Shown in pieces: positions 19,683 to 32,538 of a DNA stretch of 40,253 bases (its first letter is position 1; every line of letters begins with the position of its first letter). Origin of the DNA: a virus; IMG/VR virus record IMGVR_UViG_3300043673_000011, positions 1 through 40,253 of that record; one strand, written 5' to 3'. The translations under genes were made by a program, and so were the position numbers. The notes beneath the pieces are model-generated. The model saw only the letters and a list, made by a program, of their open reading frames with translations. It was not told where the DNA came from and did no database searches.

Positions 19683-20369
19683 TTAAGCCCGCAATGCCTT
19701 TGCGAGATAGGGATCGACGTCAGGCTGACTGAGCAGCCAGCGCTTGTAATCTGGCGGCACATCGCCGAGCGGCACGCCCTTGTGCTTGCCGAACGGCATG
19801 ACCTTCGGGATCCGAGCGCTCTCGGAGATCTCCCAAAGCTCAGACCAGGTCGCACCTCGCGGCAGCAGCTTGATCTGGATCTCGGGCAACAGGACGTCGA
19901 AGATCATCCGGATATCGGACACGGCCGAGTGCGCGCCCTTGACCATGTCGCGCGCGGCGCGCTTGTCGATCATCAGGTGATAGACCATCGCGCCCAAGGA
20001 ATGTGAGTCAGCGGCCGGCCAAAGCGATCGCGCGAGGGCGAGCGTGCAGATGCGCTTTACATTCGGTTTCCCGAGCATTCGCCAATCGAAATCGACGTTA
20101 TGGCCGACGATGTACTCGATGCCTAAGGCCGCCGGATCCCATCCGATGAACGGCGGGAAGCCCTGCAGGTCCTCCTCGATGATGTGATGGGTCGCCATGG
20201 CGCCCAAGCTGATCGGGCGATCGCAGGAATAGCGATAGGCGAAGTGATTCAATTCGCTGAAATCATCGAGCGGCCGAGGCGCCTCGAGCAGCTGCGTATG
20301 CGCCAACTCGATGATCTTGTCTTCGTCACCCGTGCCGGTCGTTTCGGTGTCGAGAATGACGGCGCTCAT
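19683..20369 (-). CDS. ExoX/DnaQ-like DEDDh 3'-5' exonuclease
   Basis: 228 residues. Exo I: ILDTETTG gives D7 and E9. Exo II: HNVDFDWRML gives D93. Exo III: HSAVSDIRM gives H147 and D152. This is a full DEDDh active site requiring two metal ions. The C-terminal segment VMPFGKHKGVPLGDVPPDYKRWLL matches the ExoX/DUF3820-like C-terminal module. It would trim single-stranded 3' DNA ends. It lies with RecT and a PD-(D/E)XK nuclease, so a repair or recombination role is likely. Starts by overlapping the previous stop. Confidence 0.9.
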   Translation of the reverse strand: MSAVILDTETTGTGDEDKIIELAHTQLLEAPRPLDDFSELNHFAYRYSCDRPISLGAMATHHIIEEDLQGFPPFIGWDPAALGIEYIVGHNVDFDWRMLGKPNVKRICTLALARSLWPAADSHSLGAMVYHLMIDKRAARDMVKGAHSAVSDIRMIFDVLLPEIQIKLLPRGATWSELWEISESARIPKVMPFGKHKGVPLGDVPPDYKRWLLSQPDVDPYLAKALRA

Positions 20370-21175
20370 GTGCGCCCGCTCGCCAGGATCTTGCGGCTCG
20401 TCACCTTGAGACCGGCTCCTACGACACCGACCGCCTCCTTCTTCAGCGACTTGACGACGGCGCCGATCTTCACCAGATCCGGCGTCATGAATGAGGCATT
20501 GATTTTCGTCGCATCGAGGATCTCGAATTCGTAGTGATCGCGAAACTGCGTACCGGCGACGCTTGCAACCTGCGCTTGCGCGATCGGAGCGACGACGGAC
20601 GAGGCGCGTGTCTCGAAGGTCTCGGCCTTGGCTTCTGCCTTCTCCTCGACGCGCACTGCTCTGGCGGACAGCTTCGCCGCTTCCGCGGCCCTGCCGGCGG
20701 CAGCGGCCGCTTCGGCGTCTTTGCGCAGCTGCTCGGCCTCCGCATCCGCCTTGCGCTTAGCCTCATCGGCGATCGCCTGCAGGCGCTTGCGCTCATCCTC
20801 AGCGATCTTATCGAGCCTGGCCTGCTCGATTTTTCGCAATCTGTCCTGCTCCGCATCCCACGCGATGACCTTCGCATCCAATAGATCGCGAGCCTGCGTG
20901 AATTGGGAGATGGGCCCGGCGAACAGCTCCATGACCTCGCGCTTGCTCTCATCGATTTTTCGCGTGATCTTGAGGCGCCGCTCGTTTAAATCCTTGATCC
21001 TGGAATTAAGCCGCGCGCGCGCCTCCTGGCCCTTCGCCGAGTCCGACGCATTGGTGACGGCGAACTGAGTCGCATATTCGACCGCGGTCATCGCCTCGCG
21101 CGCGTCGTGCTGCACAAGATCCTTCGGCTCCGCCGCTGGCTCAGGCTGCGGCGCCGGCTTCTGTTTCGCTGACAT
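20366..21175 (-). CDS. Coiled-coil protein associated with recombination genes
   Basis: 269 residues. A Pro/Glu-rich N-terminus precedes a long helical part (~45-190) with dense Arg/Glu/Lys/Ala heptads (AEDERKRLQAIADEAKRKADAEAEQLRKDAEAAA shortened). A compact C-terminal domain (FRDHYEFEILDATKINASF...LKVTSRKIL) follows. Proteins of this build recur beside phage RecT-type genes. The role is unknown; it could bridge the annealing protein and exonuclease. Overlaps the exonuclease gene upstream by 35 bp. Confidence 0.75.
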   Translation of the reverse strand: MSAKQKPAPQPEPAAEPKDLVQHDAREAMTAVEYATQFAVTNASDSAKGQEARARLNSRIKDLNERRLKITRKIDESKREVMELFAGPISQFTQARDLLDAKVIAWDAEQDRLRKIEQARLDKIAEDERKRLQAIADEAKRKADAEAEQLRKDAEAAAAAGRAAEAAKLSARAVRVEEKAEAKAETFETRASSVVAPIAQAQVASVAGTQFRDHYEFEILDATKINASFMTPDLVKIGAVVKSLKKEAVGVVGAGLKVTSRKILASGRT

Positions 21176-21749
21176 TGATAATTTCCCTGTGATTGAAGCG
21201 ATGAACGTTCAGGTAACTGACGAAATACGACCAGTCCGACGCCTCCTCGCATTTGATTAACTTGTAGGTGTTGCGCTTGAGCTGCAGGCACAGGCGGCGC
21301 TTCGGCTTCTCATCGCACGCCTCGCGATACGCCGCTGTCTGCAACCCAACCGCGCGCGGCACGGCGCCGCTTTTTAAGTCCAGCAACCAGGTCGAGCCCT
21401 TCCACGTGCCGCGCTTATCGAGCGTGCCGGCGTAGCGCTGCCGGGCGTTGTAGATCTGCTGCTCCGAGTGCGTCACGACGAAGCCCGTCTCGCTTAAAAA
21501 GAGCTTGTAGGCGTTCAGATGCGGCACCAGCATGATGTCGAGATTCTCCTCATCGAGAATCCCGCGATCGAACAGGTCCGTCGCCGCGTGCACGTGCTGG
21601 CCGAACCGGCGCGCGCGCTCGAGCAGCTCCGGATCCACGCGATCGAAGTTATCGATCGCGTGAAGCACCTGAGTGACGCTCGGAACCACGCGCCCGCCAT
21701 AGCGATACGTATGAGTCTCGACGTCGAAGGACAGCGAGGCCTTAGGCAT
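21141..21749 (-). CDS. PD-(D/E)XK exonuclease (RecE-like partner of RecT)
   Basis: 202 residues. Conserved core: HSEQQIY (E96), YAGTLDKRG (D111), WLLDLKSG (D124 and K126) and LQTAAYREA (Q137, Y141). This is the RecB-type PD-(D/E)XK arrangement used by phage 5'-3' exonucleases. It lies directly downstream of the RecT/Bet gene, as in two-component phage recombination systems that resect and anneal DNA. It is shorter than RecE, within the range of compact phage exonucleases. Confidence 0.85.
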   Translation of the reverse strand: MPKASLSFDVETHTYRYGGRVVPSVTQVLHAIDNFDRVDPELLERARRFGQHVHAATDLFDRGILDEENLDIMLVPHLNAYKLFLSETGFVVTHSEQQIYNARQRYAGTLDKRGTWKGSTWLLDLKSGAVPRAVGLQTAAYREACDEKPKRRLCLQLKRNTYKLIKCEEASDWSYFVSYLNVHRFNHREIINVSETEAGAAA

Positions 21750-22631
21750 TTAGCCCGCGCTCGCCTCGTCGATGACCACCATCGCGGCCTCGTAACTCGC
21801 GACAGGGAGCTCCTCGAGGCTGTTGACCTCAAACCTCGCCAGCAACAGGCTCAGCGCGACGCCTTCCTCCTTGAGCTTGTCGGCGAGCATCGTCGCCTGG
21901 TCGAGCGTTATCCGATCGACTGGCGGATCCGCGGCCGGGATCTGCTTTGCTTGCGGTGCCCGCGTCTCGGGTTTGCCAGCAGCGCCGCGCGGCGTGACGT
22001 CGATCGCATTCGCATATACGCGCTCCGCATCGTCCGGGTCATAGACGCCGGCGTAGCCGAAAGCGATGCGCCCGCACTGGATGATCGCCTTGTGGCGCGT
22101 CATGCGCTTGGGCATCTCGTTCCACGGGTTCGTGTCGCGATAGCACTCCTTCAAGTACTCACGAACCACCGTGGGGCGGCTTCGATCCTTTCGCTTGATC
22201 TCGACTTCGACGAAATACTCGTCATGATCAGTGCCATCCGGAGCGGTGCGAATCTCCATGTAATCGAACTCGGGGCGCAGATTGATCAGGCGCACCCACC
22301 CATCGAAACCGATGATCGGCACAATCCCATTCTCGGACGGGAAGGCGTAGATCTCGCGCGTGAACGGGTTGAGCCCGTATTCCTTGGCAATCACCAGCAG
22401 CGCCATCATCTGCTCATTGCTGACGACCTTCGCCTCGCCGCCGCCCTTCGGCGGGCGCTGCTTGAAGGCGGTCTGCTTCAAGGTCTCGAGCATCTTGTCC
22501 GCATCGATGCTGTATTTCGCGGCGAACTGTGCGACCAGGCCCGTTGAGCGGCCGACATCGACCGTCGCGACCTGCGTGCCCGTAGGATCTCGCGGCGCGA
22601 GCTCCGTTGATTTCTTCTGCTGTGTTGCCAT
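21750..22631 (-). CDS. bet: RecT/Bet-type single-strand annealing protein
   Basis: 293 residues. The hallmark segment EYGLNPFTREIYAFP followed by IVPIIGFDGWVRLIN is characteristic of the RecT/Bet superfamily (lambda Bet style). DPDDAERVY and a variable C-terminal tail follow. It anneals complementary single strands and works with the exonuclease encoded immediately downstream. GAAGGG at good spacing supports the start. The operon arrangement suggests early expression with replication. Confidence 0.92.
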   Translation of the reverse strand: MATQQKKSTELAPRDPTGTQVATVDVGRSTGLVAQFAAKYSIDADKMLETLKQTAFKQRPPKGGGEAKVVSNEQMMALLVIAKEYGLNPFTREIYAFPSENGIVPIIGFDGWVRLINLRPEFDYMEIRTAPDGTDHDEYFVEVEIKRKDRSRPTVVREYLKECYRDTNPWNEMPKRMTRHKAIIQCGRIAFGYAGVYDPDDAERVYANAIDVTPRGAAGKPETRAPQAKQIPAADPPVDRITLDQATMLADKLKEEGVALSLLLARFEVNSLEELPVASYEAAMVVIDEASAG

Positions 22632-22657
22632 TGATTTACCCTTCGTTTATCGACTTT

Positions 22658-22873
22658 TTAAGATTTCTTCGCGCCGGCCGGGCGCAGATCTGTCATCGAA
22701 TATCGGCGCAATGCGGCCTCGCGGCGCTTCGCCTCGCTCTCGACCGCGCGCGCATGGCTCATCACTTGGTGCGCATCCCATTTGGCGATCGCCCAACGCG
22801 AGCCAGCCATGACGGCCCAAAAGCCTAAAGTCGCGGCTACGAGTAGCGCGGCGCCTAGGAAGACGTTTTGCAT
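22658..22873 (-). CDS. Small membrane protein
   Basis: 71 residues. Residues ~5-24 are one hydrophobic span (FLGAALLVAATLGFWAVMAG), followed by a long charged amphipathic helix. It overlaps the previous gene by 19 bp. The function is unknown; it could be a superinfection-exclusion or membrane-anchoring protein. Confidence 0.6.
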   Translation of the reverse strand: MQNVFLGAALLVAATLGFWAVMAGSRWAIAKWDAHQVMSHARAVESEAKRREAALRRYSMTDLRPAGAKKS

Positions 22874-23055
22874 TCTGAGATCTCCAGTTCCTTGAGGGTT
22901 TGTCGAACGCGGGCGCGAAACTGCGTGGCGCGAAGTTTTGATTCGAGCGATGTACTGTCAGGATCCAGATCAGCCGAGAGCGTCAGGCGCGCATCGATAT
23001 GGCGCAGCTCAGTGGTGAGCTCAGCGACCGCCGCGTCGAGCTTCGGCGTGCTCAT
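22855..23055 (-). CDS. Small helical protein
   Basis: 66 residues from the ATG at 23055, which overlaps the tiny upstream gene (ATGA). Acidic and helical (KLDAAVAELTTELRHIDARLTLSADLD...LRATQFRARVRQTLKELEIS). No membrane segment, no known motif. A longer frame upstream is Arg-rich and rejected. Confidence 0.6.
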   Translation of the reverse strand: MSTPKLDAAVAELTTELRHIDARLTLSADLDPDSTSLESKLRATQFRARVRQTLKELEISECKTSS

Positions 23056-23141
23056 AGCGGCACCCCGCGCGCGAGGTAAAGTAGGACCGCGAAGGCCGCG
23101 AGCACGATGAGGATTGCGACGATTCGCAGAATGAGCCTCAC
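23052..23141 (-). CDS. 29-residue single-span membrane peptide
   Basis: From the GTG at 23141 the peptide reads MRLILRIVAILIVLAAFAVL then LYLARGVPL. It is almost entirely a membrane helix with Arg at each end. Start and stop both overlap neighbours (GTGA, ATGA), as the rest of the operon does. Function unknown; resembles tiny phage membrane peptides. Confidence 0.55.
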   Translation of the reverse strand: MRLILRIVAILIVLAAFAVLLYLARGVPL

Positions 23142-23371
23142 GGGCGCACCCCCGCATACATCCAGCGATCGCCGTGCTGGCCGGCTTCCGAGATCTGCTC
23201 CTCGAGAGCGGCGGCCGCGCGCACGATTCCATAGGCGCGCTCGGTGCGAACTTCCTTGGCTAGGTGCGGCGGAGTGCTCTGTAGTGCATCTTCGAAACAC
23301 AAGTGACGCGCGAGCCAGTGCAAGGCGTGAGCCTGCTCGCGGGTAAGCGAAACCTTGATGAGCGCGCTCAT
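23138..23371 (-). CDS. Small helical protein
   Basis: 77 residues from the ATG at 23371 (ATGA overlap). Helical: LIKVSLTREQAHALHWLARHL, then HLAKEVRTERAYGIVRAAAALEEQI and a GDRWMYAGVRP end. No membrane span. A longer frame reaching 23794 is Arg/Ser-rich and rejected. Function unknown. Confidence 0.6.
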   Translation of the reverse strand: MSALIKVSLTREQAHALHWLARHLCFEDALQSTPPHLAKEVRTERAYGIVRAAAALEEQISEAGQHGDRWMYAGVRP

Positions 23372-23562
23372 GGCTGCGTGCCCGGATCGATGTCGACCGA
23401 GACCACCTGGCCGCGGCGGTACTCGGTGATGCGAGAGCCCACGAATGGATCGTTCTCGGTACCGCTGCCCGACATCGGTTCGTCGATGACGTAGTGGCGC
23501 GTGGCGTGACGCAGTTTGCGGCGCGCGCGATACGCAGCGCTGCGAATTCGGCGCCGGCTCAT
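23368..23562 (-). CDS. Small basic protein
   Basis: 64 residues, ATGA overlap at both ends. The N-terminus is very basic (MSRRRIRSAAYRARRKLRHATRHY); the C-terminal half is Gly/Asp-rich and may be a small beta unit (ENDPFVGSRITEYRRGQVVSVDID). The basic start might bind nucleic acid. Unknown function. Confidence 0.6.
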   Translation of the reverse strand: MSRRRIRSAAYRARRKLRHATRHYVIDEPMSGSGTENDPFVGSRITEYRRGQVVSVDIDPGTQP

Positions 23563-23693
23563 GAGCGCACCTTGACGATCTTGATTGCGGCGTCTTTGAT
23601 CGACGCGAGACGGAAGCCGCGCAGCGTCTCTTTGCTGACGATCGCGCGCAGCGGCGTGGTGCCGTTGAACCAGGTAATGGTGACTTGGTACAT
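23559..23693 (-). CDS. 44-residue protein
   Basis: ATG at 23693, stop overlapping the next gene's ATG. Sequence begins MYQVTITWFNGTTPLRAIVS and continues with KETLRGFRLASIKDAAIKIVKVR: beta strand(s) then a helix with many basic residues. No match recognised. Confidence 0.6.
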   Translation of the reverse strand: MYQVTITWFNGTTPLRAIVSKETLRGFRLASIKDAAIKIVKVRS

Positions 23694-23699
23694 GGGCGC

Positions 23700-23852
23700 T
23701 TACTCCGCCTGGGGCATGAGGAAGGCGAGGCCGCCAGCGAGAGAAGCGCGGCGTGCGATGTCGGCGACGAGCTCGGCCTCGTAGTTCTGCTCACGCGCGT
23801 CGTCGGAGCGAACCTTCAGGCGAAGTGGCGTGATAGTGGTGGTTATAGACAT
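23700..23852 (-). CDS. 50-residue protein
   Basis: 50 residues from the ATG at 23852, chosen because ACGGAGGT lies upstream at good spacing. An in-frame ATG at 23900 that overlaps the preceding stop would give 66 residues. Contains RLKVRSDDAREQNYEAELVADIARRASL. No known family. Confidence 0.6.
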   Translation of the reverse strand: MSITTTITPLRLKVRSDDAREQNYEAELVADIARRASLAGGLAFLMPQAE

Positions 23853-23896
23853 CCTGACCTCCGTTTCAGTGGAGGCGAGAACGCGGGCGCAGGCGC

Positions 23897-24085
23897 TCAT
23901 ATCGTCGGCGCGCTGAGTGAGTCGATAAGGCCATCGGCGACGATCACCGCGAACTGCGCCGCATCCTGCTTCGGAATGCCATCGGCGACTAAGCCGGCGA
24001 GCGCCGCGGCCGCGAAATACTCGCGCTTTGTCAGTCCGCCAGATGCCCCGGGTTGTGTGGGAAAAGCCTGTTCGTTGCCATCCAT
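23897..24085 (-). CDS. Small conserved phage protein, first gene of leftward operon
   Basis: 62 residues. Pattern: NEQAFPTQPG..GGLTKREYFAAAALAGLVADG; the GLTKREYFAA motif is common in small early phage proteins of unknown role. It is the first gene after the predicted leftward promoter at 24121-24159, with a GGAG site before the ATG. Confidence 0.7.
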   Translation of the reverse strand: MDGNEQAFPTQPGASGGLTKREYFAAAALAGLVADGIPKQDAAQFAVIVADGLIDSLSAPTI

Positions 24086-24120
24086 TTTGCCTGTCTCCGG
24101 AATCGCTTAGGAGACGGCAA

Positions 24121-24159
24121 GGTATAGCATGCTTTACTAAGTGTCAATCATGCTATACC
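24121..24159 (-). promoter_or_regulatory. Left operator/promoter block (PL/OL candidate)
   Basis: Two inward-facing copies of a ~14-bp motif GGTATAGCATG(C/A)TT stand at the block ends. Reading leftward they contain TTGACA (24147-24142), a 15-nt gap and TATACC (24126-24121), a sigma70-like pair. The first gene starts ~36 bp further on. The same block, almost base for base, occurs at 24594-24632 facing right. Confidence 0.75.
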
Positions 24160-24182
24160 AACAATGGTATATAAACATCGAC

Positions 24183-24198
24183 GCGCCCGGTCGGGCGC
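24183..24198 (-). terminator. Possible leftward terminator after repressor gene
   Basis: GCGCCCG/CGGGCGC inverted repeat (7 bp with a 2-nt loop, or 6 bp with a tetraloop) lies between the repressor stop and the left promoter. In the leftward direction it is followed by a short T-rich stretch (GTTTATA). It would separate repressor transcription from the early operon. The rest of 24160-24294 holds no convincing gene. Confidence 0.45.
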
Positions 24199-24294
24199 CC
24201 CTGTTTAGGGTGGCTGGCGAAAGGTTCTGAGAGCAGAGGGAAGAGCGAATGGGAATCAAAGCGAGAATTTTTTCTATCGAGAATGTGACGTTTG

Positions 24295-24567
24295 TCAATT
24301 TTCCGACTGCGCACCCCTACCTGAAGAGGGTGGCCGTCCGGCGCCGTCACGCGGAGAGCCGAATACCACGTAATGAGGGCGCGCGCCCAATACATCGCAG
24401 AGCATCAAAAACGTCGTTAATTTGACGTTTTGACTCTCGCTATTTTCCCAATGTGAGACGGCGGCTTTCGTAACGCCGAGCTTGTCGGCAAGTTCGAGTT
24501 GAGACCAGCCCTTGGCATTGCGCAGGTTGCGTATGCGATCGCCCATTGTTTCGGTGATGGGGTCCAT
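24295..24567 (-). CDS. cI: Short CI-like repressor, helix-turn-helix (XRE type)
   Basis: 90 residues from the ATG at 24567; an in-frame start at 24624 would run over operator sites. HTH at ~22-42: WSQLELADKLGVTKAAVSHWEN, a clear XRE/HTH_3 motif. A short tail ends in SSGRGAQSEN. There is no C-terminal LexA/S24 peptidase domain, so RecA-driven self-cleavage is not expected. No ribosome site is visible and the -10-like TATGCT sits so close that the mRNA may be leaderless, as for lambda CI from PRM. Divergent from cro, sharing the operator region. Confidence 0.85.
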   Translation of the reverse strand: MDPITETMGDRIRNLRNAKGWSQLELADKLGVTKAAVSHWENSESQNVKLTTFLMLCDVLGARPHYVVFGSPRDGAGRPPSSGRGAQSEN

Positions 24568-24586
24568 GATGGGTTTAGCATAGGGG

Positions 24587-24632
24587 CTAACCCGTATAGC
24601 ATGATTGACATGCCGGGTTAGCATGCTATACC
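24587..24632 (+). promoter_or_regulatory. Right operator/promoter block (PR/OR candidate)
   Basis: TTGACA (24605-24610), 16-nt spacer, TATACC (24627-24632) facing right. The block is flanked by operator copies CGTATAGCATGATT and, inverted, GGTATAGCATGCTA. A second interleaved inverted repeat, GCTAACCCG (from 24587) with CGGGTTAGC (24614-24622), overlaps it. cro begins at 24642, ~9 bp past the -10, so its mRNA is likely leaderless. Confidence 0.78.
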
Positions 24633-24641
24633 CTGCGCGGC

Positions 24642-24863
24642 ATGCTCAAATCCGACGTAATTGCATATTTTGGGAGTGCGGCCGAAGCGGGGCGCCAGCT
24701 CGGCATCACGCGCGCCGCGGTTTCCAACTGGCCTGACCTCGTCCCTCGAGGATCCGCTTACCAGGTCGAAGTCGTCACGGGCGGTAAGCTCAAAGTTGAT
24801 CCGGCCCACTACGATAAAAAAAACTCTGACGCTGACGGCGTCAATTCTTTGACGGCTGCATAA
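24642..24863 (+). CDS. cro: Cro-like repressor
   Basis: 73 residues. The opening MLKSDVIAYFGSAAEAGRQLG with ITRAAVSNW and LVPRGSAYQVEVVTGGKL matches Cro/YdaS-type proteins (helix-turn-helix with a short beta tail). There is no ribosome site before the ATG, and the promoter lies within ~10 bp, so leaderless translation is likely. Near the end, GAT AAA AAA AAC carries the slippery A AAA AAC in frame, followed by a 6-bp stem; a -1 slip would meet a stop at once (CTC TGA) and shorten the protein by about ten residues. Confidence 0.85.
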   Translation: MLKSDVIAYFGSAAEAGRQLGITRAAVSNWPDLVPRGSAYQVEVVTGGKLKVDPAHYDKKNSDADGVNSLTAA

Positions 24864-24901
24864 GTGCACGCTGTACATTTTTCATTCTTCATCAGCGTCC
24901 T

Positions 24902-25036
24902 ATGACCATTGCGCGGACTTTGCCTGCATCGGGTTGCCCCATGCAGCAAATGCGACTTATTGACGCTAAGACAACATATTCGGCAATTGTTTGTAAAAAG
25001 TTCAGAGGCGGCGCGTTGAGTTTCGCGGCCGCCTGA
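24902..25036 (+). CDS. 44-residue ORF upstream of replication gene
   Basis: ATG at 24902 to a TGA that overlaps the next start (TGATG). Contains PASGCPMQQMRLIDAKTTYS and KKFRGGAL, a protein-like composition unlike shadows. No obvious ribosome site, so expression is uncertain. The remaining ~38 bp after cro hold nothing recognisable. Confidence 0.45.
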   Translation: MTIARTLPASGCPMQQMRLIDAKTTYSAIVCKKFRGGALSFAAA

Positions 25037-25941
25037 TGAGATCGCGCAATTTAAAGCCGTCGATCTTCACCAATGAGCTGCTCGCCGTGGCAGATCCGTT
25101 GTTCACCGTCATATTCGAGGGGCTTTGGTGTGCGGCCGACAGGGAAGGGCGCCTCGAGGATCGACCCGCGAAGATCCATATGGCGATCAATCCGGGCCGC
25201 GCCTTTGAAGGCACAGAACGATCACTTGGATGGCTGTCCGAGAATAAATTCATCCTGCGTTACACGCTCGACGGCGTCGCCTACATCCAGGTCCTAATGT
25301 TCTGGAAACACCAGAACCCGCACTTCAAAGAAGCCCCATCAGTAATACCAAAAGCCCCAGGCTTTTCACCGACAGATGAGGGTAAAGCCTCGGGCTTTTC
25401 TCCAATGGATGACAACAAAGCCCTGGGCGAGCCTGAGGCTAGCACCAACCTAGGTAGGTGCTCACCCCCCAACGGTAGAGACAAAGCCCGGCTGATTCCT
25501 GATTCCGGATCCCTGATTCCCTCTTCTCTGATTCCTGATTCCGGATCCCTGATCCCTGATCCCCCATTCACTGCACCGGCGGCGCAGAACGGGCATGCGG
25601 TCGAATCTGAGAAAGAAATTCGGACTCGAATCGACTCGATCAAGGCCGTGTTCCCGAAGGCGGCCCGCCAGGATTGGGTAACGGCCGAGAAGCTGATCCG
25701 CAATCTCGTGACCCAGGGCACCACATGGGAAACCATCATCGACGGAGTTGAGCGCTACGCTCGGCTGTGCACGGCGACAAACCGCCAGGCGCAAAACCCT
25801 GGATTCTGGTTCGGCGCGATAGATCAACCATGGCTGCAGGAATGGGCTATCCACGCAGGAAAGGCTGCCGCTAAGACGTACCACCGAAAAACCGCGGATG
25901 AACTCGAAGCTGAGGAGGCGGCGCGCGATGCTCAGCACTGA
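25036..25941 (+). CDS. Replication initiator (O-like / DnaD-like phage replication protein)
   Basis: 301 residues. The N-terminus (RSRNLKPSIFTNELLAV then ADREGRLEDRPAKI and ILRYTLDGVAYIQVLMFWKHQNPH) is the winged-helix domain of a common family of phage replication initiators. A low-complexity linker (~100-195) follows, and then a C-terminal helical domain (KAARQDWVTAEKLIRNLV...NPGFWFGAI). The linker DNA carries two small hairpins and an iteron-like cluster, so it may hold the origin, as lambda ori lies within O. Rightward expression from PR. Confidence 0.8.
   Translation: MRSRNLKPSIFTNELLAVADPLFTVIFEGLWCAADREGRLEDRPAKIHMAINPGRAFEGTERSLGWLSENKFILRYTLDGVAYIQVLMFWKHQNPHFKEAPSVIPKAPGFSPTDEGKASGFSPMDDNKALGEPEASTNLGRCSPPNGRDKARLIPDSGSLIPSSLIPDSGSLIPDPPFTAPAAQNGHAVESEKEIRTRIDSIKAVFPKAARQDWVTAEKLIRNLVTQGTTWETIIDGVERYARLCTATNRQAQNPGFWFGAIDQPWLQEWAIHAGKAAAKTYHRKTADELEAEEAARDAQH
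25350..25562 (+). repeat. Hairpins and CTGATTCC iteron-like cluster; candidate origin
   Basis: Two hairpins AAAAGCC-CCA-GGCTTTT (25350-25366) and AAAGCC-TCG-GGCTTT (25384-25398). Then a 26-bp sequence beginning CTGATTCCTGATTCC appears twice (25492-25517, 25528-25553) with a 36-bp period. CTGAT(T/C)CC occurs seven times overall. The codons give LIPDSGSLIP twice. Confidence 0.6.
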
Positions 25942-26584
25942 TCGAGAGCAATTCGAGGCGCAGCTCGCGGCGCTGTGCGCGGGATTCAACGTGCCGGCCA
26001 CGAAAGAACGCCAGGAGGCCTATTGGACGGGTCTCTCGAAAATGTCGCTGCCGCAGTTCGGTCGCGCCGTAGAGAGCGCGCTCGGCGAGGACGGACCGGA
26101 GAAATTCCCGACGACTGGCCTCATGTGGAAGCTCTACAAGCAGGCCAAGAGTCAATCGCAGACGATTAAGCAAAACGTTCCGCAGACCGAGGAACATGAT
26201 CACTTGTTGTTTTTCGCGAATCGCATGTTCATGCGCCATTTACACAATCGCCAAGGACTCGGATCAACCGGGAGATTTATTCCGGCTCACGGAATGGTTG
26301 ACTGCAAGGCATCAAGCGAATTACTCGCCGCGCGCAAAGTCGTGCGCGAACTAGTGGATTACTTCTCTGGCCCGATCTGCGAGGGCGATGAGGACGCTAC
26401 GCCAGCGGAATTCGTGGCGCAATTGATTGTGGCTCTCGATAAAGTATCCAGGATCGACAGCAAAACCTTGCGCGGATGGGGGGAAATGTCCGGCCATGCC
26501 GACGCGAAGAAGCCGTTTGAGCGGTATATGGGGCGGCCGTTGCCTGAGAAATATGATCGCGCTGGCCAGTTGATGCTCGCATGA
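25928..26584 (+). CDS. Possible helicase-loader-type phage replication protein
   Basis: 218 residues from the ATG at 25928, overlapping the initiator by 14 bp; a longer start at 25898 is Arg-rich and rejected. Helical, with QFEAQLAALCAGFNVPATKERQEAYWTGLSKMSLPQFGRAVE and a long C-terminal helical region. Position immediately after the O-like gene recalls lambda P, but no AAA+ motif is visible. Assignment as a loader is inference. Confidence 0.6.
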   Translation: MLSTDREQFEAQLAALCAGFNVPATKERQEAYWTGLSKMSLPQFGRAVESALGEDGPEKFPTTGLMWKLYKQAKSQSQTIKQNVPQTEEHDHLLFFANRMFMRHLHNRQGLGSTGRFIPAHGMVDCKASSELLAARKVVRELVDYFSGPICEGDEDATPAEFVAQLIVALDKVSRIDSKTLRGWGEMSGHADAKKPFERYMGRPLPEKYDRAGQLMLA

Positions 26585-26829
26585 TCAGCACTCAATTCGC
26601 CGACAAGGACATCGAACTGCAGTTCGTCCGCGAGTTCTCGGTCGCCGGCAACAATATCGGCACGTGCTTGAGTTCCGAGGATCGGCGCGAGCGGATCCGC
26701 ATCGCAATTTTCTCAGCCAACCTGCAGGACAAAATATTTCGCGACAGCGGTATGACCTACGCAACCGCGTATCGCCAGTGCTATGGCAAGCCGCTCGACA
26801 TGCGTCGGCATCCGAGGCCCGCCCCATGA
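26581..26829 (+). CDS. Small protein, paralogue of next gene
   Basis: 82 residues, ATGA overlap. Pattern DIELQFVREFSVAGNN...RRERIRIAIFSANLQDKIFRDSGMTYATAYRQCYGKPL; the R..RIR.AI....I..SG and TY.Q.YG.PL parts match the following protein. Probably a small DNA-binding or replication-associated helical protein. Function unknown. Confidence 0.65.
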   Translation: MISTQFADKDIELQFVREFSVAGNNIGTCLSSEDRRERIRIAIFSANLQDKIFRDSGMTYATAYRQCYGKPLDMRRHPRPAP

Positions 26830-27089
26830 TCGAGCGAGGCTTTCATGACTTCGACGTCGAGGCCTTCTTCGTCACGAGGCTTGCGCAACACGGCACCAGC
26901 ATCACGATCGGGCGCACCGATCCGAAGATTCGAAAAGATCGGATCCGCAAAGCGATTCTCGATAACAAACGAGAATTTACAATCATTGGCCAATTCGCGG
27001 GCAGCAAAAAGGCCGAGACCTACCAGCAATTATTCGAGCGCCACTACGGCGAGCCGCTTTCACTGACAGCGAAAACTCAAAAAGGATAA
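26826..27089 (+). CDS. Small protein, paralogue of previous gene
   Basis: 87 residues from the ATG at 26826 (overlaps the previous stop). Shares with the upstream protein DVEAFFVTRL/DIELQFVREF, RIRKAI/RIRIAI, and the end TYQQLFERHYGEPL/TYATAYRQCYGKPL. A tandem duplication that has diverged widely. Function unknown. Confidence 0.65.
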   Translation: MIERGFHDFDVEAFFVTRLAQHGTSITIGRTDPKIRKDRIRKAILDNKREFTIIGQFAGSKKAETYQQLFERHYGEPLSLTAKTQKG

Positions 27090-27093
27090 AAAT

Positions 27094-27648
27094 ATGCTCA
27101 ATTTACCGAAGAAAAACGTAACTCTCGCGACGCACATCAATGGTCGCACGCAAAAGCACGGCGAGGAGCATGTGCCGTACATCGATTTGAAATTAACGAC
27201 GCTGCTCACCGCCAAGCAGACGATCGCCCTCACCGGTGAGTCTCACATCACGGATGCGTGGTTCAAAACGGAAGGCGGGGAGCTCGCGGATCCATTGCTC
27301 AAGGATTGGGCGCCGTATCGCAAGAACGGCAAGTTCAAGGATTCGCTCTGCGCCTTTACCGTTGGCGTGAATGCCAAGAAAATCGACATGGGCAATTGCA
27401 CGATCAAATCCTGCACCTTTCAGCCGCAGGATCGCGGATCCACGCTGCTCACCTGCACCGTGCAGGCGCAGGCGACGAGCAAATCGATTGAGATCCTGCT
27501 TTGGATGGGCCATCAAATCGAGGGAAAGCTGCAGTTCGGGGAAATGGAGGTCGATGAGAATCAGCAGGATTTGGGCCTCGAGACACCGAGGGATGACGAG
27601 GCCGGCGATGATGACGACGGTGACGATTCAGACACCGCGGCGGAGTAG
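27094..27648 (+). CDS. SSB-like phage protein with acidic C-terminal tail
   Basis: 184 residues. N-terminal pattern LPKKNVTLATHINGRTQKHGEEHVPYIDLKL, a family I know from phage early regions. The C-terminal ~25 residues are strongly acidic (DDEAGDDDDGDDSDTAAE), as in single-stranded DNA-binding proteins that recruit replication partners. It lies between replication genes and RusA. OB-fold assignment is inference from the tail and position. Confidence 0.7.
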   Translation: MLNLPKKNVTLATHINGRTQKHGEEHVPYIDLKLTTLLTAKQTIALTGESHITDAWFKTEGGELADPLLKDWAPYRKNGKFKDSLCAFTVGVNAKKIDMGNCTIKSCTFQPQDRGSTLLTCTVQAQATSKSIEILLWMGHQIEGKLQFGEMEVDENQQDLGLETPRDDEAGDDDDGDDSDTAAE

Positions 27649-27650
27649 CA

Positions 27651-28100
27651 ATGTCCGCCGCAATCTTGCGCATCGTCGTGTACGGCTCGCCGGCGCCGCA
27701 AGGATCAAAGAAATTCGTCGGTATGATCAACGGTCACGGCATGCTGGTCGAATCATCGAAGAAGGTGAAACCGTGGCGCCAGGACGTGGTCGCCGCTGCG
27801 ATCAAAGCTCGCGAGGCTTCGGGCAATCCGGCGCCGCTCGATTGTGCGCTCTCGGTGCGCATGATCTTCACCGTGCCGAAACCAAAATCGGCACCGAAGC
27901 GAAAGCGCATCCACGCTATGCGAAAGCCCGATGTCTCAAAGCTCGCCCGCAGCACCGAAGATGCGCTCACCACGGCTGGCATCTGGACTGACGATTCGCG
28001 CGTGGTGCAATACGAGCGGCTCGCGAAAGTGTTTCCCCGTGAGGATGACGAGGCGCTGGAGAGCAGCGGCGTCGTAATTGAGATCAGATCAATCGTTTGA
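27651..28100 (+). CDS. rusA: RusA-family Holliday junction resolvase
   Basis: 149 residues. Opening GSPAPQGSKK and core KPDVSKLARSTEDALTTAGIWTDDSRV are diagnostic. Acidic residues D94, D104 and D114/D115 should bind the catalytic metal as in E. coli RusA (D70, D72, D91). It resolves branched DNA made during replication and RecT recombination. Follows directly after the SSB-like gene. Confidence 0.92.
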   Translation: MSAAILRIVVYGSPAPQGSKKFVGMINGHGMLVESSKKVKPWRQDVVAAAIKAREASGNPAPLDCALSVRMIFTVPKPKSAPKRKRIHAMRKPDVSKLARSTEDALTTAGIWTDDSRVVQYERLAKVFPREDDEALESSGVVIEIRSIV

Positions 28101-28113
28101 AGGAGAAAAAATC

Positions 28114-28284
28114 ATGAGCTTCAGTTTCCTTGTGTTGATTCTGGCGCTGATATTTGCCGCTCTTGCATGCGTGCCATGGGGCAACCCATCACGTCCGTGG
28201 ACGCCATACTTTTGGCCGCTGTCGTGGTTTTGCTTCGTGCTCGCGGCGGTGCTCACCCATGGCGGCATCAATTGGCGTGGATAA
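28114..28284 (+). CDS. Small two-span membrane protein
   Basis: 56 residues from the ATG at 28114, with AAGGAGA upstream. Two hydrophobic stretches (~3-21 and ~33-49) around a Pro/Trp-rich turn (PWGNPSRPWTPYFWP). An unknown phage membrane protein. Confidence 0.65.
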   Translation: MSFSFLVLILALIFAALACVPWGNPSRPWTPYFWPLSWFCFVLAAVLTHGGINWRG

Positions 28285-28294
28285 GAAACTCGAA

Positions 28295-28426
28295 ATGTCG
28301 GACGAGGAATACAACGGCAGCGACGATGGCAGTTGGCTAGGGTTTTGGATCGTCATCGGGATCATCGTCGCTATCGTTTTGGCCGCGATGTACGGCTATT
28401 CGCAATATACGTCCGTACTGCAGTGA
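28295..28426 (+). CDS. Single-span acidic membrane protein
   Basis: 43 residues from the ATG at 28295; a GTG at 28277 overlapping the previous stop is an alternative. Acidic start (MSDEEYNGSDDGS), then one membrane helix (LGFWIVIGIIVAIVLAAMYGY) and a short end. Function unknown. Confidence 0.55.
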   Translation: MSDEEYNGSDDGSWLGFWIVIGIIVAIVLAAMYGYSQYTSVLQ

Positions 28427-28593
28427 TCCGGATCTCGCCCAACGGTAAGCGCATGCGGACGCAAATCGTTGCGCGAGATCTTCCCCGTGTGACGCGACGC
28501 CCACTTCCAGCGCATCCGAAGCGCGAGAAACTCAAATGGTGGCTTAATCGGCTCTTGTGGGTTTTCACCCTTTGCACGATCACGGGGCAGTGA
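28423..28593 (+). CDS. Small basic protein
   Basis: 56 residues from the GTG at 28423 (GTGA overlap). N-terminal half basic (NGKRMRTQIVARDLPRVTRR), C-terminal half hydrophobic with KWWLNRLLWVFTLCTI. Ends just before the next ATG. Could be membrane-associated. Function unknown. Confidence 0.5.
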   Translation: MIRISPNGKRMRTQIVARDLPRVTRRPLPAHPKREKLKWWLNRLLWVFTLCTITGQ

Positions 28594-29319
28594 ATGCAAG
28601 TCAACATCAAGGTCGATACATCGCTGCTCGAAAAGAATATGAAACGCTACGCGAAGAATCTGGCGTTTTCGACAGCTCAAGCCTTGAACGATGCGGCAAA
28701 GGAAGCTCAAAAGCGGATCCGCGAAAACTTACGCGCGAGATTCCATATCCGAGAAGCCGCATTCATGGATCGCACGATCAAGATCTTTGCCTTTGCCAAT
28801 GCTCGAGCGAATCGGCCATATGCCGAACTTGGCGTCGACAACAAGAAGCGATTGCTGCTGTCGATCTTCGAAGAAGGCGGCGCGCGATTGCCGTTTGTCG
28901 GCAAGAACTTGGCTGTGCCAATCACCGGTCAAGCTGCACGCCCTGGCATTGGCGATAGCGTGAGGTCTGATTACACTTTCAGCGCATTGAACTTTCGTAA
29001 ATCTGCAATCACCACTCAAGGACGTCGCATCCTTGCAGCGCGCAAGCATGCGGGCATTCGCAAACGCAAGCTCGCGGGTCAATACCTCATCTGGCAGGGG
29101 GATAAGCGCACCTTCATTCTGCCGCAGACACGTCGAGCACCCTTGGGTGGTGTATTTCAGCGCGTGGGACCCGGCAAAGACGATATCCGGATGATCTATT
29201 CGTTCAAATCGAATGTGCGATTGCGGGCCGCACTCGATTTCGTTTCAACCAGCCAGCAGGCATTCAGCGACGTATTCCAAGAATCGTTCTATCGTCGCTT
29301 TTATCGATTGAACGCCTAG
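28594..29319 (+). CDS. Phage structural-type protein upstream of terminase
   Basis: 241 residues, directly after the preceding stop. Pattern MQVNIKVDTSLLEKNMKRYAKNLAFSTAQALNDAAKEAQ then RIRENLRARFHIREAAFM recalls minor head or tail-completion proteins that sit before the terminase in some siphophages. No catalytic motif. It ends in a 4-bp convergent overlap with the exported cargo gene. Its codon use looks less GC-rich than neighbours. Confidence 0.6.
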   Translation: MQVNIKVDTSLLEKNMKRYAKNLAFSTAQALNDAAKEAQKRIRENLRARFHIREAAFMDRTIKIFAFANARANRPYAELGVDNKKRLLLSIFEEGGARLPFVGKNLAVPITGQAARPGIGDSVRSDYTFSALNFRKSAITTQGRRILAARKHAGIRKRKLAGQYLIWQGDKRTFILPQTRRAPLGGVFQRVGPGKDDIRMIYSFKSNVRLRAALDFVSTSQQAFSDVFQESFYRRFYRLNA

Positions 29320-29930
29320 AGCGATGGTCCACGATGCGCGAGCTTTTCAAGTACTGCTTTTCGATCCGCAGAGCTTTTAAGCGAATCCACAATCACCAGA
29401 CCGGAATTGACGCTGCTCGGTGCGCTGTCGTAGGAAACGACTATCTCGCCGAAATCCCATGCAGCCCTCACGGATTGATATTTCGCACCGAACGCATTTT
29501 GCAGCGATGGTTGATCTGCGCTTGTCGGCTTGCCGAACTTATCAGACAACGCTTGCATATCGCTTTGCTGCGACTGTATGCCTCGCGTGTTGAAGCTAAC
29601 GCCTTCCAACGTGCCGTTCATGATCTTAGCCATCGCGAAGAACGGAGCGCCGAGAAGTCTTGGCGCCCCCATCGTCGGCCATTTGATCAGCACAGTGTCG
29701 TTTGTAATTGCGGTGTTCTTTCCAGCACCAACATCGCCAATCAGCTCGTAGCACATCGCTTTCTGTGCGCCACTGTACATACCAACGGTCTTGGTGATGT
29801 GTGTGTATGGACACTCTGGCACAGCGAATGGTTGCTGCAATTGCATCTCAAAGACAGTGAGATCTGCAGCTGATGCTGTGTATCCAGTCATCATGATCAG
29901 CGCTGCTATTGCCGTGTGTGTGTACCGCAT
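29316..29930 (-). CDS. Exported protein, likely lysogenic cargo (moron)
   Basis: 204 residues from the ATG at 29930, with AAGGAG 8 bases upstream. Residues 1-21 form a signal peptide (basic start, AIAALIMMTG, cleavage near ASA). Two cysteines (C40 and C60) could form a disulfide in the periplasm. The mature part is mixed alpha/beta; contains SLQNAFGAKYQSVRAAWDFGEIVVSYD. It is inverted against the late genes, AT-richer and has a TATATA-like element upstream, all typical of prophage cargo. A longer reading frame to 30500 is a shadow. No family recognised. Confidence 0.75.
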   Translation of the reverse strand: MRYTHTAIAALIMMTGYTASAADLTVFEMQLQQPFAVPECPYTHITKTVGMYSGAQKAMCYELIGDVGAGKNTAITNDTVLIKWPTMGAPRLLGAPFFAMAKIMNGTLEGVSFNTRGIQSQQSDMQALSDKFGKPTSADQPSLQNAFGAKYQSVRAAWDFGEIVVSYDSAPSSVNSGLVIVDSLKSSADRKAVLEKLAHRGPSL

Positions 29931-29956
29931 TGCATTCACTCCTTGTGTTGCTTGGG

Positions 29957-29962
29957 TATATA
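29957..29962 (-). promoter_or_regulatory. Possible own promoter (-10 like) of exported cargo gene
   Basis: TATATA in an AT-rich patch ~27 bp before the ATG of the leftward cargo gene; no good -35 is visible. Supports independent expression but is weak. Confidence 0.35.
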
Positions 29963-30019
29963 CATACAACCACATTGCATCATCGATAGCCGCGCCAGCT
30001 GGTAAATCTTCGATCCGCA

Positions 30020-30095
30020 TCACACTGCGGGTCCTCCCTAGGGGGTCATGCGCTGCGGGTGACGGCGGCCCCGGTTTTCGTCCAGATTCAACTTT
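30020..30095 (+). other. Candidate cos (packaging) region
   Basis: Gene-free gap directly upstream of the small terminase gene. It has GCGGCCCCGGTTTTCG (30065-30080), similar to the CGCGGGTTTTCGC motif at the lambda left cohesive end, and CTCCCTAGGGGG (30034-30045), near-palindromic. With a lambda-type terminase, this is the most likely nicking region; the exact cut cannot be read from sequence. Confidence 0.4.
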
Positions 30096-30638
30096 TTGAA
30101 AAAGGTGAACAAAACAGGTGCATTGATCTCGATGCGCGAATATTCCCGCCGGCGCGGCGTTGCTGTCTCGGCTGTTTCGAAAGCGGTCAAATCCAAGCGG
30201 ATTACGCTGGTGCGCGGCAAGATCGACCCGATCAAAGCGAACAAGCAATGGGACGCCAATACGCAGCCAGGGCAAAGGGCGGTTAACACCAGGCGCAAGG
30301 CACCCTCCGCGGCGCCGCCGCCGGCCGCCGCGGACCCGGGCCAGACCCGGGATACACCCGATCAGCAGCCGAATTCCTATGCGACCGCGCGAGCTCGTCG
30401 GGAAGAAACGCTCGCCAACATGGCGCAAATGGACTTCGATGTGAAAATGGGCGTCCTGGTCAACGCGGCCGAGATCCGCGAGAAGATTTCGAAGCTGCAC
30501 ACGGAAGCGAAGACCCGGCTCCTGGGCGTGGCGAGCAAGTGCAAGGCCCGGCTGCCGCAGCTCTCGGCGATCGACGTCTCGATAATTGAGGATTTGATCC
30601 GCGAGGCCTTGGGAGAGATAGCCAGTGGCAGCGGCTGA
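30096..30638 (+). CDS. Small terminase subunit (Nu1-like)
   Basis: Up to 180 residues; the start is uncertain (TTG 30096, GTG 30105 or ATG 30132). The MREYSRRRGVAVSAVSKAVKSKRI segment is the winged/helix-turn-helix DNA-binding motif of Nu1-type proteins. A Pro/Ala-rich linker follows, then a C-terminal helical part that should contact the large subunit. It recognises the packaging site. Its 3' end overlaps the large subunit start by 14 bp. Confidence 0.8.
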   Translation: MKKVNKTGALISMREYSRRRGVAVSAVSKAVKSKRITLVRGKIDPIKANKQWDANTQPGQRAVNTRRKAPSAAPPPAAADPGQTRDTPDQQPNSYATARARREETLANMAQMDFDVKMGVLVNAAEIREKISKLHTEAKTRLLGVASKCKARLPQLSAIDVSIIEDLIREALGEIASGSG

Positions 30639-32538
30639 CGAGCTCGTCGCCGAGATGCGCGCGGTCTTCCGGCCGCCGCGGCGGATGCTGCTCTCGGAGT
30701 GGTCTGACGAGTATGCGTTCCTGTCGGCTGAATCGAGCGCGGATCCGGGGCGCTGGAAGACTCTCCCGTATCAGATCGGAATCATGGATGCCTTTGTGGA
30801 TCCAGCGCTCGAGCAGATCACGGTGATGAAATCCGCGCGCGTCGGCTACACGAAGATCATCAATAACGCGATCGGGTATCACATTCACCAGGATCCGTGC
30901 CCGATGATGGTCGTGCAGCCAACAGTTGAGGACGCGGAAGGGTACAGCAAGGAAGAGATCGCACCGATGATTCGCGACACGCCGGTGCTGCACGGCCTGG
31001 TCTCGGAATCGAAATCGAAGGACGGCGGCAACACGATTCTGCAAAAGCAGTTCGCCGGCGGCACGCTTAACTTCGTCGGCGCGAATTCCGGCCGCGGCTT
31101 CCGTCGTGTGTCGCGTCGAATCGTTTTCTTCGATGAGATCGACGGGTATCCAGCGAGCATCGGCGCGGAGGGCGACCCTATCAAGCTCGGCATTCGGCGC
31201 ACCGAATACTACTGGAATCGAAAGATCATCGCCGGATCCACGCCGACGATTAAGGATCTGTCGAAAATCGAGCGACTGTTTTTGCAGAGCGATCAGCGGC
31301 GCTTTTTCGTGCCGTGCCCGCATTGCGGTGAGTTTCAATATTTGAAGTTCGGCGGCCGAGATAAACCATTCGGTCTGAAATGGCCGGAAGGGGACCCGGC
31401 CGCGGCATATTACGTTTGCGAGGTTACCGGCTGCCGCATCGAGCACGCGCTCAAGCGCGATATGATCGGCCGCGGCGACTGGCAAGCCACTGCAGTCGGA
31501 GCGCCGCGGCACGCGGGCTTTCACATTTGGGCGGCCTACTCGTATTCGCCTAACGCCACATGGGGACACATCGCATCGGAGTTTGTGGCTTCGGTGAAGG
31601 ATCCGGAGGAGCTCAAGACCTTCGTCAACACCGCGCTCGGTGAGACCTGGGAGGAGAAAAGCGATTCACTGGATTCGAGTAACCTTAAAAGTCGAGTCGA
31701 GCAATATCCGGCTGAAGTTCCTCACGGGGTCGGCCTTCTGGTGGGCTCCGTCGACGTGCAGGGCGATCGCCTCGAGTGGAAGTGCAAAGGCTACGGCGAT
31801 CGCGAAGAGTCCTGGCTGATCGCCACGGGGCAGGTCTACGGCGACCCTTCGAAGGAGCAAACCTGGCTCGATCTCGACAAGGACCTGCAGCAAGTATGGG
31901 CGCACGAGAGCGGCCGCGTCATGCCGATGCGCTGTGTCGCTGTGGACTCCGGCGGCCTGCACACCGACCACGTTTACAAATTCTGCAAGGTGCGCGAGGA
32001 CCGAAAAGTCGGCGGACTCTCGCAGCACGTGTATGCGATCAAGGGCGTCGGGGGAGCCGGCCGGGAGATGGTCTCGAAGCCGACGCGAAACAATCGCTAC
32101 AAGACTCAGCTCTGGCCGCTGGGCGTGGATACGATCAAGGACACGGTTTTCGCGCGCCTGCACATCATCGACAAGGGCCCGGGCTTCATGCATCTGCCGG
32201 TATGGATCGACGATGACTACCTCGAGCAGCTCACCGCCGAGAAAGCGGTCAAGCGCTACAAGAAGGGCGCGGGCACGGTGCGCGAGTACATCAAGATCCG
32301 CGAACGCAATGAGGCGCTTGACCTTGAGGTGTATGCACTCGCGGCGCTTCACATGCTCGGCCGCGCGACGGTGCAACGCCTGCCGATCTACGCGGCCGAG
32401 ATGAGCCTGCCGATCTTGGAACCCAAGCCGCCGCCGCCCTTCGGCGAGCCGCAGTCGCTTCAGATCCAAACGCCCGGGCCAAAGCTGCAGTCGCCGTTTC
32501 GGTATGGCAAGGGGTGGGTGAACAGCTGGAAAAAGTGA
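30625..32538 (+). CDS. Large terminase subunit (gpA-like)
   Basis: 637 residues, GTG start. ATPase part: Walker-A-like KSARVGYT (69-76), Walker B VFFDEID (167-173). A zinc-like CPHCG...CEVTGC segment follows. The nuclease part (SVDVQGDRLEWKCKGYG and AVDSGGLHTDHVYKFC) has the acidic residues for cos cutting. Matches lambda gpA (Phage_GPA). It pumps DNA into proheads and cuts at cos. Follows TerS and precedes the portal-associated genes. Confidence 0.95.
   Translation: MAAADELVAEMRAVFRPPRRMLLSEWSDEYAFLSAESSADPGRWKTLPYQIGIMDAFVDPALEQITVMKSARVGYTKIINNAIGYHIHQDPCPMMVVQPTVEDAEGYSKEEIAPMIRDTPVLHGLVSESKSKDGGNTILQKQFAGGTLNFVGANSGRGFRRVSRRIVFFDEIDGYPASIGAEGDPIKLGIRRTEYYWNRKIIAGSTPTIKDLSKIERLFLQSDQRRFFVPCPHCGEFQYLKFGGRDKPFGLKWPEGDPAAAYYVCEVTGCRIEHALKRDMIGRGDWQATAVGAPRHAGFHIWAAYSYSPNATWGHIASEFVASVKDPEELKTFVNTALGETWEEKSDSLDSSNLKSRVEQYPAEVPHGVGLLVGSVDVQGDRLEWKCKGYGDREESWLIATGQVYGDPSKEQTWLDLDKDLQQVWAHESGRVMPMRCVAVDSGGLHTDHVYKFCKVREDRKVGGLSQHVYAIKGVGGAGREMVSKPTRNNRYKTQLWPLGVDTIKDTVFARLHIIDKGPGFMHLPVWIDDDYLEQLTAEKAVKRYKKGAGTVREYIKIRERNEALDLEVYALAALHMLGRATVQRLPIYAAEMSLPILEPKPPPPFGEPQSLQIQTPGPKLQSPFRYGKGWVNSWKK

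Follow-up and report, generated by a model that had tools for sequence, protein, structure and literature searches.

The window, by which we mean the whole 40,253-base virus record analyzed here and which we read as one tailed temperate phage, carries between positions 24121 and 24632 a single leftward gene flanked by two inverted near copies of one promoter-like block. The flanked gene (24295 to 24567, minus strand) encodes a 90-amino-acid repressor, the cI/c2 analogue, which consists of an HTH domain only (HTH_3; Pfam E value of 3.3e-13), and it is the sole gene found between the two blocks. Its start at 24567 is our choice; the frame is open up to an ATG at 24624. To its right, cro (24642 to 24863, plus strand) encodes a 73-amino-acid protein of the P22 Cro family (PF14549; E value of 6.7e-19, 67.9 bits against a curated cutoff of 30.2) that matches the solved P22 Cro, PDB 1rzs, with an E value of 9.1e-11. 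Downstream of cro lies a gene for a replication initiation protein (25036 to 25941, plus strand). On the other side, the first gene of the leftward early block (23897 to 24085, minus strand) encodes 62 amino acids matching phrog_2201 (E value of 1e-6) and, by gene-family match, a Bet-like annealing protein (21750 to 22631) and an exonuclease (21141 to 21749) are also read leftward, with a large serine recombinase (12776 to 14257) further left. The gene order is that of a predicted OL/PL, the repressor, a predicted OR/PR, and cro, with recombination genes on the left and replication on the right.

Among solved structures, the best matches to the repressor are HipB proteins (E value of 6e-7), and the DNA-binding domain of P22 C2 matches more weakly (E value of about 7e-5). 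No C-terminal peptidase or oligomerization domain was found in its 90 amino acids; the matches shown fall within residues 1 to 78 and belong to HTH and regulator families. Because the repressor is missing the C-terminal domain that lambda CI and P22 C2 have, cooperativity, looping, and cleavage are not to be assumed for it. The recognition helices of the repressor (TKAAVSHW) and Cro (TRAAVSNW) are alike, and 10 of 19 residues are identical over the aligned stretch, as is expected if both proteins read identical sites.

Read leftward from 24159 to 24121, the left block is GGTATAGCATGATTGACACTTAGTAAAGCATGCTATACC; the right block, from 24594 to 24632, is GTATAGCATGATTGACATGCCGGGTTAGCATGCTATACC. 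An earlier note on this DNA had called the two near copies with the same words at start and end, and this was confirmed: 36 of 44 columns are alike when flanking bases are counted, and exact stretches of 17 nt (GTATAGCATGATTGACA) and 13 nt (AGCATGCTATACC) are common to the two ends. The register is shifted by one, the left block having an additional G at its start and one base fewer in the middle. In 2,000 dinucleotide shuffles of positions 23900 to 24900, the longest exact inverted word never exceeded 13 nt, against the 17 nt observed. The gapped local score of the blocks, 26, was reached in 2 of these 2,000 shuffles, and a separate run of 1,000 (mean of 14.2) also had a top score of 26. Because the shuffles also attain 26, the gapped score is weaker as a lone measure. 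The interleaved GCTAACCCG/CGGGTTAGC repeat that the same note had described is present, but it is confined to the right block (24586 to 24594 and 24614 to 24622). In two exact-pattern scans of IMG/VR for the promoter-operator block, there were 0 matches each.

The operators can be described by a 16-bp palindrome, GTATAGCATGCTATAC. With up to three mismatches, it has four matches in the 40,253 bases, two per block, against 0.02 expected, in agreement with the four copies counted earlier; no further copies at this threshold occur outside the two blocks anywhere in the window. From left to right, the predicted operators are OL1 (24122 to 24137; GTATAGCATGCTTTAC, one mismatch), which covers the predicted PL -10; OL2 (24143 to 24158; GTCAATCATGCTATAC, three mismatches), whose inner half bears the PL -35; OR2 (24594 to 24609; GTATAGCATGATTGAC, three mismatches), which bears the PR -35; and OR1 (24616 to 24631; GGTTAGCATGCTATAC, two mismatches), which covers the PR -10 and contains the ATG at 24624 mentioned above. 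Ranked by mismatch counts only, their affinities would follow the order OL1 > OR1 > OL2 = OR2.

The hexamers TTGACA and TATACC had been placed between inverted operators. Both are present in both blocks, but they sit inside the operators: the distal one holds TTGACA, the proximal one holds TATACC, and each hexamer extends one base beyond its operator. The operator spacings of 21 bp (left) and 22 bp (right) equal the distances between the hexamers (6 + 15 and 6 + 16). The inner half-site TGCTATAC has become TGATTGAC in OL2 and OR2 alike; these distal operators deviate from the palindrome at the same three positions, and the deviation, with the next A, makes TTGACA. We read this as one site that would double as operator and promoter box.

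A candidate OR3/PRM region (24571 to 24594) combines a half-site, an inverted repeat, and a weak -10 and is uncertain. The half-site, GTTTAGCA (24573 to 24580), has the orientation of the OR2 half-site, is 21 bp away from it, and could be a weak OR3. The inverted repeat pairs GGGTTTAGC (24571 to 24579) with GCTAACCCG (24586 to 24594), which makes GGGTTTAGC a third piece related to the right-block repeat. The weak PRM -10 candidate is TATGCT (24582 to 24577), 9 nt before the repressor ATG.

The predicted PL (24147 to 24121, minus strand) is composed of TTGACA (24147 to 24142), a spacer of 15 bp, and TATACC (24126 to 24121) after TGC, and the first leftward gene starts 35 nt past its -10. The predicted PR (24605 to 24632, plus strand) has TTGACA (24605 to 24610), 16 bp, and TATACC (24627 to 24632), likewise after TGC. 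Between the end of its -10 and the cro ATG there are only 9 nt, in which no ribosome-binding sequence can be seen, and we therefore predict that the cro mRNA has little or no leader. TATACC agrees with the E. coli -10 TATAAT at four of six positions, the final T being absent. CTATAC agrees at five of six with the CTATAT of the promoter consensus CTTGAC-N17-CTATAT, as given in its source (PMC2573895); this consensus is rhizobial and may not be the host's, and the likeness is only a lead. A hairpin after the repressor gene (24183 to 24198) had a z score of -1.6 for the stretch, was equaled in 14 of 200 shuffles, and is not claimed as a feature.

The nearest kin of the window phage by Bet protein are L014 (96%) and L015 (81%). 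A third sister phage, L114, is the one found by terminase as L020 (80%) and the only one of 80 terminase loci that was taken to the immunity region. L014 matches the window at 88 to 92% left of 23758 (89, 88, and 92% in the nearest three pieces) and at 96% right of 26577; the stretch from 23758 to 26577 is unmatched, as expected of an exchanged immunity module. All three sisters have a different repressor and a different small HTH gene in the cro position. Their operator is a 14-mer, TACGGAATTCCGTA, with five sites in L014 and six each in L015 and L114 (up to three mismatches, within 2.5 kb). Among 116 loci, many of them short of an immunity region, at least four sites of this 14-mer occur in these three alone, and at least two copies of the window-type operator occur only in L001 to L003, which are the window itself.

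In each sister block, two operators lie 24 bp apart (6 + 18), and the boxes stand in a window-like relation to them. The left boxes are TTGACA-18-TAGGAT in L014 and TTGACA-18-TAATAT in L015 and L114; the right boxes are TTGCGT-18-TAAGAT in L014, TTGCGC-18-TAATGT in L015, and TTGCGT-18-TAAAGT in L114, and the right -10 is followed 7 nt later by the ATG in the cro position. The arrays are not identical to that of the window because all three sisters add a third operator site on the right, overlapping at 13 bp, and outside the blocks there is one more in L015 and one more in L114. We also considered helical phase. By our own arithmetic, the distances in the window of 451 bp (OL2 to OR2) and 494 bp (OL1 to OR1) are near whole turns at 10.5 bp. 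The distances in the kin disagree (L014, 1,197 bp, near whole turns; L015, 1,087 bp, half a turn off; L114, 1,105 bp, not whole), and no conclusion about looping was drawn.

Several small genes were seen in passing. A 204-amino-acid protein of the window (29316 to 29930, minus strand), secreted looking by eye and with no Pfam match, is reversed among the rightward genes before terminase. It has relatives in L014 (3662 to 4258; 35%, E value of 7e-46), where the gene separates the OL block from the repressor gene, and in L018 (1432 to 2013; 49%), before terminase; the three are probably members of a single accessory (moron) gene family that occupies two sites. L015 and L114 have other small open reading frames between the OL block and the repressor gene, convergent with the repressor and signal-peptide or lipoprotein like by eye. 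No such open reading frame was seen in the corresponding gap of the window (24160 to 24294).

When known switches were aligned identically, the blocks of lambda agreed in 42 of 56 columns with a score of 23 and those of P22 in 41 of 60 with a score of 17, next to 36 of 44 and 26 for the window. Near-copy left and right blocks are thus a normal trait of such switches, plainest in lambda. The sister blocks scored 14 (L014), 22 (L015), and 17 (L114); for scale, window shuffles, which span a larger region, had a mean of 14.2, and 244 of 2,000 reached 17. Because the L014, L114, and P22 scores are modest against these shuffles, the common feature is the plan rather than the letters or the degree of likeness.

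In the P22 record, as here, OL and OR of immC enclose no annotated gene other than that of the repressor. The window's Cro is homologous to P22 Cro, its repressor HTH weakly matches the C2 domain, and its predicted operators overlie PL and PR as in P22. Unlike P22, which by record annotation has three operators per side, the window has two clear operators per side plus the one half-site at 24573 to 24580; C2 has 216 residues by coordinates against the 90 of the repressor here, and the operator sequence differs. Lambda likewise has inverted near-copy promoter-operator blocks and a divergent cro, but its record annotates three operators per side and rexA and rexB between cI and OL, neither of which is the case here. 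The repressor of phage 933W, in contrast to the 90-amino-acid protein of the window, is of another, full-length lambdoid kind. According to the 933W report (PMC3317979), that phage has no OL3, so that three operators per side is not universal, and the two clear operators per side here resemble that arrangement; the same paper reports that the 933W repressor binds noncooperatively. For the telomere phage PY54, the published report (PMC4488713) describes cI and cro mRNAs found by RACE to be leaderless and, in immB, a 16-bp palindromic Cro site. The palindrome length is the same here, and the leaderless cro mRNA predicted for the window would therefore not be new in kind, but the Cro of PY54 is described there as binding a single site, in contrast to the four sites predicted here.

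We consider it very probable that a temperate tailed phage has its immunity region here, arranged in lambda/P22 style with OL/PL, a repressor, OR/PR, and a divergent cro. Gene order, gene families, and the comparison with lambda, P22, and the three sister phages support the earlier note's reading of the blocks as left and right early promoters. By sequence and gene content, the operators overlap predicted early promoters, the left one directed toward recombination genes and the right one toward replication genes, and from this we infer both the binding of repressor and Cro and the activity of PL and PR. In the proposed switch, repressor dimers, and later Cro dimers, would bind the same 16-bp palindromes. 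Two palindromes would lie over each early promoter, the distal one containing the -35 and the proximal one the -10, and since the operators overlie both boxes, bound protein would exclude RNA polymerase from PL and PR together. The blocks would then be near copies because operators and promoter boxes are the same in both and are set in the same phase.

An extension of this switch that we regard as unlikely is that each block is a two-way promoter whose palindrome ends read TGCTATAC outward both ways. The outer half of OR2 would then serve a leftward maintenance promoter of the repressor (CTAACC-17-TATACG), and the outer half of OL2 would serve a rightward promoter (TTTACT-15-TATACC) whose RNA would be antisense to the 3' end of the repressor gene. 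If this were true, one short sequence present four times would be operator, -10, and, slightly changed, -35 for all four switch promoters, and a four-promoter switch would be run by a repressor consisting of a DNA-binding domain only. The plus strand also has a 58-amino-acid open reading frame (24249 to 24425; no Pfam match), partly antisense to that same 3' end, which would be read from this possible rightward promoter of the left block.

That the left block is an operator cluster only, a silencer or looping anchor copied from OR, with the leftward genes starting elsewhere, seems to us improbable to a greater degree. The 15-bp PL spacer is under the usual 16 to 18 bp, a stock sigma-70 scan detected no promoter at either block because TATACC is without the final T and the spacing of PL is short, and another leftward candidate, TTGACA-16-TAGAAA (24298 to 24271), lies upstream of the left block. 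However, the block outscores the other candidate by 12 to 10, and the first leftward gene begins close behind the block's -10. Furthermore, the left-block TTGACA is exact in the window, L014, L015, and L114, and in L015 and L114 its -10 is TAATAT.

We attach very little probability to the blocks being bound by a host regulator and not by the phage repressor and Cro. Binding here is predicted only, and the HipB matches of the repressor fit such an idea, but the sites flank the repressor gene and are absent elsewhere in the phage, and the three sister phages differ from the window in operator type and repressor type alike. Finally, a functionless duplication or chance likeness, to which the 2 shuffles in 2,000 that matched the gapped score might point, can be dismissed almost entirely, since no shuffled exact word approached 17 nt, the likeness falls on the operator halves and promoter boxes and not on the spacer, and the same plan recurs with other letters in the kin and in lambda.

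We also searched for relatives and for other operators. No DNA relatives of positions 20000 to 32000 were found among 50,697 deposited phage records in megablast mode. Relatives of the repressor were found in 11 deposited phage records, all at less than 60% identity, and at 4 viral and 11 genome loci, where the best segments were 53% over 34 residues and 59% over 29. A test for 10-base words around 16 repressor relatives gave, among the words listed, one clear palindromic word flanking the repressor, ACTACCTTGGTAGT, in L004/L005, several longer direct words in L104, and scattered words or none at the remaining loci. In L004/L005, ACTACCTTGGTAGT lies up- and downstream of a 143-amino-acid repressor gene (3998 to 4429), a possible OL/OR pair. 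Around the Cro relatives L008 to L012, no operator family like that of the window was found among the best two families of 14-, 16-, and 18-bp palindromes, and the Cro relatives L008 to L011 have a recognition helix different from that of the window. When 297 genomes of one order were searched for Bet, three matches came up, at 37 to 47% identity.

Among the phages compared here, this is a new operator specificity, as judged from sequence, within a familiar class of switch. The phage, with no near DNA match to its central 12 kb in the 50,697 deposited phage records, uses the classic lambda/P22 plan; its operator was not seen in the sister phages and is paired with a very small repressor. The repressor/operator pair is clean and useful for annotation and changes no general view. 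We predict that the window phage is heteroimmune to L014, L015, and L114. Because these sisters hold another specificity at the same place, this lineage appears to exchange immunity modules, as lambdoid phages do.
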